Positions 3 through 24,899 of a stretch of 64,000 nt of DNA are shown in pieces. Below the pieces are notes generated by a model. That model was not told the DNA's origin. It saw nothing but the letters and a program-made list of their open reading frames with translations, and searched no databases. A program made the position numbers and the translations under genes. Positions within the stretch are counted from its first letter, which is position 1. The number at the start of each line of letters is the position of its first letter. Source of the DNA: Cognatiyoonia koreensis (GTDB lineage Bacteria; Pseudomonadota; Alphaproteobacteria; Rhodobacterales; Rhodobacteraceae); contig NZ_FOIZ01000003.1 of assembly GCF_900109295.1 (NCBI RefSeq), positions 1-64,000 on the forward strand. Reading direction: 5' to 3'.

Positions 3-1178
3 ATGGCTAAGGCAAAGTTTGAACGTAACAAACCCCACGTTAACATTGGCACGATTGGCCACGTTGACCACGGCAAGACGACGCTGACGGCGGCGATCAC
101 GAAGTACTTCGGTGACTTCCAGGCCTATGACCAGATCGACGGCGCGCCCGAAGAGAAGGCCCGCGGCATCACGATCTCGACGGCGCACGTGGAATACGAG
201 ACAGAGTCGCGCCACTACGCGCACGTCGACTGCCCCGGCCACGCCGACTATGTGAAGAACATGATCACGGGTGCGGCGCAGATGGACGGCGCGATCCTGG
301 TTGTGAACGCAGCCGACGGCCCGATGCCACAAACGCGCGAGCACATTCTGCTCGGCCGTCAGGTGGGCATTCCGTACATGGTTGTCTACATGAACAAGGT
401 TGATCAGGTCGACGACGCCGAACTGCTCGAACTGGTCGAGATGGAGATCCGCGAACTGCTGTCGTCCTACGAGTATCCCGGCGACGACATCCCCGTGATC
501 CCCGGTTCCGCGCTTGCAGCCATGGAAGGCCGCGACGAGGAAATCGGCGAGCAGTCGATCCGCAAGCTGATGGAAGCTGTCGACACGTACATCCCGACAC
601 CTGCGCGTGCGGTTGACCTGCCGTTCCTGATGCCGATCGAGGACGTGTTCTCGATCTCGGGTCGTGGTACGGTTGTGACCGGCCGTGTGGAGCGTGGCGT
701 GATCAACGTCGGCGACGAGATCGAGATCGTGGGCATCCGCGACACCACCAAGACGACCTGCACAGGCGTCGAGATGTTCCGCAAGCTGCTGGATTCCGGC
801 GAAGCTGGCGACAACATCGGTGCGCTGCTGCGCGGTGTTGACCGTGAAGGCGTCGAGCGTGGCCAGATTCTGTGCAAGCCGGGTTCGGTGAAGCCGCACA
901 CGAAGTTCGAGGCAGAAGCCTATATCCTGACCAAGGACGAAGGCGGCCGTCACACGCCATTCTTCGCGAACTACCGTCCGCAGTTCTACTTCCGCACGAC
1001 CGACGTGACGGGCACAGTGAACCTGCCGGAAGGCACCGAGATGGTGATGCCGGGCGACAACCTGAAGTTCAACGTCGAACTGATCGCACCGATCGCGATG
1101 GAAGACGGCCTGCGGTTCGCAATCCGCGAAGGTGGGCGGACAGTCGGCGCTGGCGTTGTGTCAAAGATTATCGAGTAA
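3..1178 (+). CDS. tuf: Elongation factor Tu
   Basis: GTPase that delivers aminoacyl-tRNA to the ribosomal A site in the cytoplasm. At 391 residues it is full length. The P-loop GHVDHGKTT lies at residues 19-27, the DCPGH switch II motif near residue 80 and the NKVD guanine-specificity motif near 135, followed by the two beta-barrel domains. The ATG at position 3 gives the canonical MAKxKFER start, and its ribosome binding site lies outside the window. It precedes cspA and rpsJ, in line with the usual str-to-S10 order of Alphaproteobacteria. The TAA stop sits inside the 5' arm of a perfect 11-bp hairpin that opens the structured element at 1175-1255. Confidence 0.98.
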
Positions 1179-1255
1179 CTTCGCCCAGGCGAAGTTACCG
1201 GTGGGTGGCAGGGCCCTTTTCCCCCGATCAGGAAAAGGTCCCAAGAACCCACACC
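1175..1255 (+). ncRNA. Structured 3' element A downstream of tuf
   Basis: Two nested parts are visible. First is a perfect 11-bp hairpin (1175-1185 with 1188-1198), GTAACTTCGCC pairing over a CA turn, which contains the tuf stop codon. Second is a closing stem GGTGGGT (1200-1206) with ACCCACACC (1247-1255), which encloses an inner 12-bp stem (1211-1222 with 1231-1242). A second copy with different stem bases but the same architecture follows cspA at 1731-1817. I do not recognise a named RNA family. It may be a 3'-UTR regulatory, stability or processing structure. The folding is inferred by eye. Confidence 0.6.
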
Positions 1256-1293
1256 AACGTGATCTGGGTGCTACAACACCCACAAAACCAAAC

Positions 1294-1325
1294 AAGGCCG
1301 TCGCAGACATGCGGCGGCCTTCTTC
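1294..1325 (+). terminator. Intrinsic terminator after tuf
   Basis: The stem AAGGCCG ... CGGCCTT encloses CGC/GCG and is followed by TCTTC. It lies about 40 nt past structured element A and probably ends the tuf transcript. The rest of the stretch to 1522 is the presumed cspA leader, in which I see no clear promoter match. Confidence 0.7.
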
Positions 1326-1522
1326 ATTCGCCCATCGGCAGAAATCCCCGCTTTTGCAACACTAGCTGTTGCTAATTTCTGCAATACACGTCACTGCACA
1401 GGTGCGACGTTAACGCTATCTACGATATTGCTCCGAATTTTTTGGTTCAGTCTTGTGATCTTGCACTGACCGAGCTGACCTTCCGTACATGTGTGCGGAT
1501 CAAATATATTTGGAGAAATCAA

Positions 1523-1729
1523 ATGGCTAACGGCACCGTAAAATGGTTCAATGGAACAAAAGGCTTCGGCTTTATCGCACCTGATGGGGGCGGCAAGGAC
1601 GTCTTCGTTCACATTTCCGCAGTCGAGCAAGCAGGCCTCACAGGTCTGGCCGATGATCAGAAAGTGACTTTCGACATCGAAGCCGGCCGCGACAACCGCG
1701 AGTCCGCAACGAACATTAAACTGGCATAA
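1523..1729 (+). CDS. cspA: Cold shock protein, CspA family
   Basis: Small single-stranded nucleic-acid-binding protein of 68 residues, one cold-shock (OB-fold) domain. RNP1 appears as KGFGFI near residues 13-18 and RNP2 as DVFVHIS near residues 27-33. The start ATG at 1523 follows TTTGGAGAAATC, a good ribosome binding site, so an earlier in-frame start at 1442 is rejected. Proteins of this family melt RNA structure and often act as antiterminators or RNA chaperones. The gene stands alone between tuf and rpsJ, has a leader of up to about 190 nt, and carries a structured 3' element resembling the one after tuf. The symbol is generic, since several csp paralogues are usual in this family. Confidence 0.93.
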
Positions 1730-1730
1730 C

Positions 1731-1817
1731 GTAACTTTCGGCCCAGCCGAAAGTTAACGGTGGGATACGGCAGGGGCTTTTTGTATCTACAAAAAGCGCC
1801 CGAGAGTGTCCCACACC
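1731..1817 (+). ncRNA. Structured 3' element B downstream of cspA
   Basis: Paralogue of the element after tuf. A near-perfect hairpin, GTAACTTTCGGC (1731-1742) with 1746-1758, starts just after the cspA stop. It is followed by the closing pair GGTGGGA (1759-1765) and TCCCACACC (1809-1817), enclosing a stem GGGGCTTTTTGTA (1773-1785) with 1788-1801. Relative to element A the closing stem swaps T/A for A/T while staying paired, and the inner stem differs in sequence but is still paired, so structure is kept while sequence changes. Confidence 0.6.
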
Positions 1818-1829
1818 CATGACATACAG

Positions 1830-1858
1830 AAGGCCGCCCTACACGGGGCGGCCTTTTC
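1830..1858 (+). terminator. Intrinsic terminator after cspA
   Basis: AAGGCCGCCC pairs perfectly with GGGCGGCCTT over a six-base loop and runs into TTTTCC. It isolates cspA from the ribosomal genes. From here to the rpsJ promoter at 1977 I see no other feature. Confidence 0.85.
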
Positions 1859-11241: not shown

Positions 11242-11361
11242 CCGCCCATTCCTGCAGCCTCGGATTCGTCCGGGGCTGTGTGTTTTATCGAACCGGGCAC
11301 CTACGGGGGCCTCTCACATCAGGGTTCGCAAGAGCCCGCCAAGCAAACGGAAGAAGCTAAC

Positions 11362-24496: not shown

Positions 24497-24514
24497 CAGA
24501 GTTGCATATCGCAA

Positions 24515-24899
24515 CTCGTGATAAGCAACCAGTGGGCGGCAGTCGCTTTTGGAACAAAAGCGATGAGAGCAGCACCCGGTAGCAATTAGAGCGCCTCACA
24601 ACACAAGGGCCGCGCCCGACCTGGAGGGCGTTTGCCCGTGTGGATCAGCGTCGCACCTCAAAGCATGTATGTCGGGTGTTTTGTGCGTGATATCGCCAAT
24701 GCGCCCTCCGGGGGGGGGCAAGCCGAATTGAAAAGGCCCAGTGGACCTATTCAGGCGCAGAACGGGCGGTGCCCAGTACGGGCGCGGCCTGGTTATGCCG
24801 GGCAACATCAATCCGCAGCGAGAGGGCAATTTCCTGTTTTTAGTTGTGGTTACTCGCGCTATGGATGAAATCCGTATCTTTGAATAATCGAGGTCAAAC
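24515..24899. other. Intergenic stretch before the AT-rich orphan
   Basis: No gene or RNA recognised. It contains a run of nine G near 24711-24719. Composition changes here from GC-rich to the AT-rich style of the next gene, a plausible edge of transferred DNA. Confidence 0.4.

Follow-up and report, generated by a model that had tools for sequence, protein, structure and literature searches.

The structures that follow tuf and a cspA-like cold shock gene in the analysed window (the whole stretch of DNA under study, 64,000 nucleotides from Cognatiyoonia koreensis) are, with a probability of roughly 60%, gene-end members of a dispersed, mobile, REP-like family of hairpins in the Rhodobacteraceae. 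On this reading the element is a conserved fold and at the same time belongs to a mobile family of small REP-like hairpins, one that apparently has no name. Where labels are needed, G000 is the source genome, G001 and G002 are genomes of the same genus, G022 is from another genus, and L numbers denote fetched loci.

A first-pass annotation of the window had placed two-part folded structures after both genes, and the sequence, the predicted folds and the z-scores against shuffles all agree with it. The features concerned are as follows (R1 and R2 are covariance models described below).

3..1178, + strand: tuf (EF-Tu), host gene of the first element (open reading frame; NCBIfam TIGR00485 EF-Tu, 731 bits)
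1175..1198, + strand: tuf hairpin 1, with a 10-bp stem and the loop CCAG, overlapping the stop codon (sequence, fold)
1201..1255, + strand: tuf hairpin 2 including the trailing ACC (fold; match to R1 at 46.1 bits, this copy having been held out of R1)
1294..1321 (approximate ends), + strand: terminator-like hairpin 3' of the tuf element (fold; absent from the consensus terminator scan)
1523..1729, + strand: cspA-like cold shock gene, host of the second element (open reading frame; NCBIfam Csp models, all under their cut-offs)
1731..1758, + strand: cspA hairpin 1 (sequence, fold)
1760..1817, + strand: cspA hairpin 2 including the trailing ACC (fold; among the sequences from which R1 and R2 were built)
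1830..1856 (approximate ends), + strand: terminator-like hairpin 3' of the cspA element (fold; absent from the consensus terminator scan)

The whole two-hairpin element spans 1175-1255 at tuf and 1731-1817 at cspA. Hairpin 1 of tuf (1175-1198) has the arms GTAACTTCGC/GCGAAGTTAC and encloses the stop codon (1176-1178). Hairpin 2 of tuf consists of an outer stem GUGGGU/ACCCAC (1201-1206/1247-1252), a 4x4 internal loop (GGCA 1207-1210/AAGA 1243-1246), a triplet (GGG 1211-1213/CCC 1240-1242) followed by a C.U mismatch, an inner stem CCUUUUCC/GGAAAAGG (1215-1222/1231-1238) and an unpaired ACC tail (1253-1255). In cspA hairpin 2 the outer stem is GUGGGAUAC/GUGUCCCAC (1760-1768/1806-1814), the internal loop is GGCA (1769-1772)/GAGA (1802-1805), the triplet is GGG (1773-1775)/CCC (1799-1801), the inner stem lies at 1776-1784/1789-1797 with a bulged G1798, and the tail is again an unpaired ACC (1815-1817). 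The "extra AC" previously described in the right closing arm makes better sense as part of an ACC left unpaired beyond the outer stem: G022 keeps ACACC although its left arm cannot pair there. Including the terminators, the 3' regions fold with z-scores of -8.3 (tuf) and -8.9 (cspA) against dinucleotide shuffles, and 0 of 200 shuffles folded as well in either case.

Stable hairpins just past stop codons might be ordinary intrinsic terminators or long terminator stems. This explanation is very improbable: no U tract directly follows either element (sequence past 1255 and 1817), separate terminator-like hairpins come later, and the unpaired core letters are conserved. The first-pass annotation had given each copy its own ordinary terminator. 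A terminator-like hairpin is indeed seen after each copy, by eye and in the folds, but a simple terminator scan lists neither, so that "ordinary terminator" is something we infer.

Two covariance models were used to look for homologues. R1, built from three hairpin 2 copies (those of cspA, of the second tuf gene and of tuf in G022), recovered the held-out first tuf copy (46.1 bits); at E<=1 its matches extend to 23 of 394 family genomes, with the source genome among them. R2, a hairpin 2 model from 22 parsed mixed copies (alignment A5, which leaves out tufA with its extra C, L106 without the bulge, L113, L114, L115, L116, L117 and near-duplicates), matches 114 of the 394 Rhodobacteraceae genomes at E<=0.1, 100 of these at E<=0.001. 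Among 190 class-wide alphaproteobacterial genomes, four matched R2 at E<=0.001: the source genome, one more member of the Rhodobacteraceae and two from other families. Listed genomes hold 1-10 copies each in the R2 search, the filters of which lose weak matches; such low numbers are not typical of REPs and weigh against a REP-like nature. A strict pattern derived from the two window copies proved too strict, giving two matches in the source genome and none in 100 relatives; blastn of the tuf copy against 60 relatives and the source genome found the other tuf copy of the latter and nothing clear elsewhere. A similar-looking long hairpin 3' of tuf in G002 (L037, L059) gave no R2 match and was not counted as a copy.

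The 22 mixed copies show two-sided changes in 13 of 15 modelled pairs (shuffled mean 8.5), with 96.1% of cells paired and a covariation score of 0.62, against 0.095 for the best slid control and equalled by none of 500 shuffles, in an alignment that, like the next, was parsed by hand around the core in a way that favours structure; the slid controls keep the relatedness of the copies and not that bias. For 27 mRNA 3'-end copies (alignment A9, which leaves out tufA, L106, L113, the first tandem groEL copy of G001, the groEL copies of L135 and near-duplicates), the corresponding values are 13 of 15 pairs (shuffled mean 9.5; 1 of 500 shuffles as high), 92.8% paired and a score of 0.60 (best slid control 0.101). 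In the core of hairpin 2, a GRCA/GARA internal loop adjoins three base pairs, in most copies with a bulge of a single base on the 3' side; the stems vary with their pairing kept. Unpaired letters are thus fixed within freely changing stems, which suggests that something reads the folded strand. The conserved RNA fold with paired changes that had been postulated from the window is confirmed by homologues in other genera and by covariation in both sets, and the covariance model and search that had been proposed as a check yielded homologues in 114 of 394 genomes. Two copies alone, as in the window, are weak evidence of covariation, which the wider set supplies.

The annotator had known no family with this pattern, and Rfam 15, run over the whole window, assigns none to the element at gathering cut-off; at E<=10 over 1100-1900 there are sub-threshold matches only. 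Neither of the two outcomes named in the annotation as refuting it has thus occurred. Among the latter, the cspA thermoregulator (RF01766; 54.4 against a cut-off of 78) covers 1405-1759, i.e. the cspA leader and part of the coding sequence, and ends in hairpin 1. The single Rfam hit of the whole window at gathering score is the L2-Alphaproteobacteria ribosomal protein leader at 11295-11359. In those parts of the literature open to full-text searching, no description of the element was recognised.

A feature shared by tuf and cspA had been proposed, and both genes do carry the element. It is not private to them: the family is dispersed, and copies also lie beside tRNA, 5S and RNase P RNA genes and in transposase genes. 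Among the fetched loci (a set biased to high scores, so that all context tallies are descriptions of that set and no census), the element follows tuf, cspA, groEL, lepA, rpmE, rplP and a tctC-like gene, always in sense orientation. By tblastn, 27 of 79 core matches were assigned to a gene (tuf 15, groEL 7, csp 2, lepA 2, rplP 1; the other 52 unassigned); the copies at lepA of G002, at rpmE and at the tctC-like gene come from a separate reading of those loci. Each of the 27 assigned mRNA copies lies downstream of its gene in sense orientation, in a count that takes near-duplicate tuf copies within a genome individually. Further copies lie near tRNAs in 16S-23S spacers (L153, L154/L161, L159, L136/L160, L168), before 5S (L101, L111, L116), inside or just before RNase P RNA matches (L104, L112, L130) and after a tRNA (L127). 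Copies before such RNA genes are antisense and copies just after them are sense, a rule that is partly a tautology between two tRNAs. As hairpin 1 is on the 5' side of the element, this means that hairpin 1 adjoins the RNA gene.

The source genome has copies beyond the two described above. Its second tuf gene is followed by one that is 94% alike to the first, with GTCA/GAGA and a clean bulge, and another lies 3' of rpmE (named by profile), the gene before which may be rplS. The assembly is broken at the duplicated tuf genes: the end of contig C2 and the starts of C3 (window position 1) and C4 all fall inside tuf or the tuf 3' end. The window itself contains one more candidate:

24532..24574, + strand: weak hairpin 2 copy without bulge (R2, 20.9 bits, E 0.023; sequence)

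This copy has a hairpin on its 5' side (approximately 24499-24517) and lies 5' of, and antisense to, a minus-strand 2OG-Fe(II) oxygenase gene (Pfam PF13759). Its core resembles that of the rplP copy of G001.

Comparison within the genus shows both retention and turnover. G001 has copies after groEL (L329; two unlike copies in tandem, of which R2 finds one and the core pattern both), a csp gene and rplP, plus two weaker R2 matches; G002 has a single weak copy, after lepA. The csp copies of G000 and G001 can be aligned end to end, and they are very probably orthologues because csp and rplP have the same order, strand and distance (approximately 12.2 kb) in the two genomes. Judged by eye, about seven pairs are changed on both sides between them (two in hairpin 1, five in hairpin 2); no triplet or inner-stem pair is broken, and G001 does not retain the two outermost pairs of the G000 outer stem. 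At rplP, G001 has a two-hairpin element between the stop codon and a terminator-like hairpin, whereas in G000 the terminator-like hairpin alone follows the stop. The cassette therefore comes or goes between stop and terminator. The tuf tree (in which row G022b is mislabelled as lacking the element) is poorly resolved and does not distinguish vertical inheritance from repeated gain.

These observations bear on a purely functional explanation, in which the element would be a conserved cis-acting 3'-UTR structure of translation-related genes, bound by a protein or RNase or released as a small RNA, and the copies in insertion sequences (IS; see below) would be mere lookalikes. The uniform placement of the 27 assigned mRNA copies, the strong covariation inside the mRNA 3'-end set, the compensatory pairs by which the orthologous csp copies keep their fold and the predominance of translation and chaperone machinery among host genes all agree with this. 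It is nevertheless unlikely, given the antisense copies beside rRNA, tRNA and rnpB, the presence and absence at rplP inside one genus, the very similar core after rplP of G001 and at a different, antisense place in G000, and the same core in the IS insertions. With antisense copies before RNA genes and both orientations in IS, a one-strand RNA function cannot explain the whole family.

The IS form is a single hairpin of approximately 39-43 bp with the same core as hairpin 2, located inside IS transposase genes. A pattern scan of genome contigs, with a pattern that itself favours this form, matched at least 119 stretches; among the matches listed (80 titles), nearly all are from Rhodobacterales or unplaced alphaproteobacteria, and one is from Rhodospirillaceae. 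The consensus of 126 parsed matches (124 distinct) is CRTC, then C R Y T G CCC GGCAG ... CCGAGAG GGG; most outer stems have three pairs. On the 5' side, positions -12 to -9 are C in 60%, R in 85%, T in 65% and C in 76% of the 124 distinct copies, and empty-site alignments put this CRTC outside the insert, as target. The two forms are linked by R2: although no copy of known IS location went into it, the model detects IS-form copies, with approximately 33-45 bits for the main ones. On plasmids the form was found in 65 of 72,556 records, the matches listed being from genera that we take to be Rhodobacterales; it had no match in phages, and blastn of plasmids with one 60-base gene-end copy gave no match either.

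Open pieces of at least 60 aa lie beside 121 of the 126 matches, and 119 of these were scanned with profiles (two from already represented loci were omitted). Among the first 25 of 28 Pfam and 25 of 31 NCBIfam families, almost all are transposases or integrase cores of many IS families; those listed include IS3 (28 members), IS5 models (12, 10 and 8) and IS1182 (7), where one member may match several models, and the non-transposase families listed are an acyltransferase, an H-NS-like protein and a phage integrase. Of ten hand-picked open pieces, four matched transposases and six matched nothing; these six could be wrong frames or other contexts.

Three genes were compared with intact relatives. 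An istB gene has two clean hairpin inserts (43 and 41 nt), part of an IS3 gene has two (42 and 39 nt), and an IS5 gene (L151) has one family insert and an unrelated palindrome of approximately 38 nt. No target duplication is visible in any of the three, the breakpoints being ambiguous by 1-2 bases. An IS3 gene of G117 (L315) contains six hairpin inserts: five belong to the family and lie in both orientations, and the sixth has other core letters. Both the L151 and the L315 transposase genes thus have other palindromic inserts of approximately 38-43 nt, with different core letters, beside the family inserts.

The three copies of the G117 IS3 are 97.8-99.1% alike in aligned blocks, share a frameshift, and one of them is internally deleted. 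That interrupted IS occur in several closely similar copies per genome could mean that the inserts are taken out during RNA processing or translation, as mini-introns or translational bypass elements. We regard this as extremely improbable and dropped the idea after the G117 comparison: one and the same gene holds hairpins in both orientations, inserts of 39-43 nt do not all keep the same frame, no hairpin explains the G117 frameshift, and one of the three copies carries the deletion.

The two forms differ at their 5' side, where most gene-end copies have a further hairpin of variable sequence. A perfect stem of at least six pairs ending at most six bases from the outer stem is found in 27 of 36 gene-flanking and 2 of 24 IS-form copies, a regrouping by context in which the IS context is confirmed for only some of the 24; in the unregrouped bins, split by outer-stem letters and mixed in context, 22 of 33 and 7 of 27 have a stem of the hairpin 1 type. 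Hairpin 1 and IS-like outer stems occur together in two rRNA spacer copies (L154 and L168), a further link between the forms. As the IS form is without hairpin 1, the gene-end and IS forms could, instead of being one element, be distant relatives that have a recognition motif in common.

The clean inserts in transposase genes, of which one gene may hold several in both orientations, together with the antisense copies near stable RNA genes, would also be expected of neutral, selfish DNA with no host role, the pairing of which is kept for a mobilising enzyme or through template switching of imperfect palindromes. We consider this account on its own somewhat unlikely. It leaves the uniform sense orientation after the mRNAs examined and the retention of the orthologous csp site through divergence of the stems to be explained, and template switching alone would not fix the unpaired GRCA/GARA letters.

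We return to the mobile REP-like family with gene-end members. The two orientations in IS genes and the short 5' target fit a DNA-level inserter acting on folded single strands, and the sense-only position between stop and terminator of genes for abundant products fits an mRNA 3'-end barrier, processing site or insulator. A protein would recognise the folded strand through the GRCA/GARA core, and the two-hairpin unit would come and go as a cassette behind highly expressed genes. In the mRNA, the element would probably form a barrier at the 3' end, or serve in processing there, upstream of the terminator; such a role is likely for the gene-end form, and some copies may be kept because this action helps. 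Hosts may also use the hairpin inserter to disable insertion sequences. A bolder proposal is a new class of mobile folded-strand element with its own recognition protein, in which the loop module would be a transposition or recombination site and the two-hairpin form a 3'-end element of translation mRNAs and of tRNA, rRNA and RNase P loci; we find this unlikely.

As to the enzyme, per-genome presence of Y1_Tnp in the 394 genomes pointed to no transposase or recombinase tied to the element. Y1_Tnp occurs in 31 of the 394, including 14 of the 114 element genomes (approximately 9 expected), and is absent from the other 100 and from G000; a resident Y1 transposase is therefore not needed, and it was dropped as the present driver. 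Movement may have taken place in the past by an enzyme since lost.

The closest published system found, as far as the accessible text of the source goes, is that of the CGTC-tagged REPs, including the Rickettsia RPE: small palindromic repeats, mostly of alphaproteobacteria, often downstream of genes and sometimes inside them, without a dedicated transposase, with stems of 8-9 bp, loops of 4-5 and tails that are mostly CCA, and whose mode of movement that text gives as open (PMC3733652). Rhodobacter, Roseobacter, Dinoroseobacter and Paracoccus are not named in its main text, figures excluded (word search). The likeness lies in small, gene-downstream and intragenic palindromes of alphaproteobacteria, the IS form usually standing after CRTC. 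Peculiar to our element, by comparison with that text, are the 4x4 internal loop, three pairs, bulge and variable inner stem, the second hairpin at gene ends, the low copy number and the many copies in transposase genes. It does not have the combination of 8-9 bp stem, 4-5 nt loop and CCA tail. The unpaired terminal tag of that super-family is CGTC, TGTC or CCTC, with which the CRTC beside the IS form may be compared. Judged from sequence, the element is REP-like in behaviour and, by anatomy, not a member of the CGTC family.

IS200/IS605 elements insert at a specific short target without duplication. With these and with the GTAG REPs and their RAYT transposases (PMC3733652), the element has in common a folded hairpin and fixed unpaired letters, and may share a specific 5' target without duplication; unlike them, it has no GTAG tag, and 100 of the 114 element genomes are without a Y1 transposase. 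Integron attC sites consist of an outer stem, an unpaired spacer, a short stem with an extrahelical base and a variable end stem. The element resembles them in this layout, and would differ in having no fixed letters of the R/L boxes. The puf intercistronic hairpins of Rhodobacter are 3' hairpins that set mRNA stability between genes; the copy after the tctC-like gene (L126), with another open reading frame downstream, may be comparable in placement. The L17 downstream element, of which no match is listed in the Rfam scan of the window, is a motif with RNA structure in what is presumed to be the 3' UTR of a gene for a ribosomal protein, in the accessible text of PMC2864571; it resembles our element in this respect and belongs to another gene.

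One family, with a covariance model, thus takes in the hairpins at the ends of genes for ribosomal proteins and of tuf, groEL and cspA in a group with many marine members, and connects these gene-end hairpins with a tiny insert of which transposase genes accumulate copies. A protein that reads the core, if there is one, would join the control of mRNA 3' ends to the spreading of very small repeats. With its sharp empty sites and its target sequence, the element offers a testable case of the question of mobility that is also posed by the CGTC repeats.

Several gene-end loci show rearrangements around the element. Two tuf copies of one genome (L102 and L122, G415) have the same flanks (the tuf end and the start of the downstream terminator region), between which the stems of hairpins 1 and 2 are wholly unlike; a swap of the two-hairpin unit, or its very fast evolution, would give this picture. 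A tuf 3' tail, often degenerate and separate from the complete upstream tuf end, stands directly before the element in L098 (G285), L099/L121 (G115) and L113 (G381), and a tail was read from the preceding letters in L156 (G291) and L176 (G414); these extra tails look as if they were recombination duplicates or came from attachment-site use. In L127 (1832-2143, G419), a tRNA gene 3' end with the element is repeated approximately 170 bp further on, somewhat like the attachment repeat of an integrated element. After groEL in L172 (G211; 1043-1160), the element stands in tandem through a direct duplication of 75 bp.
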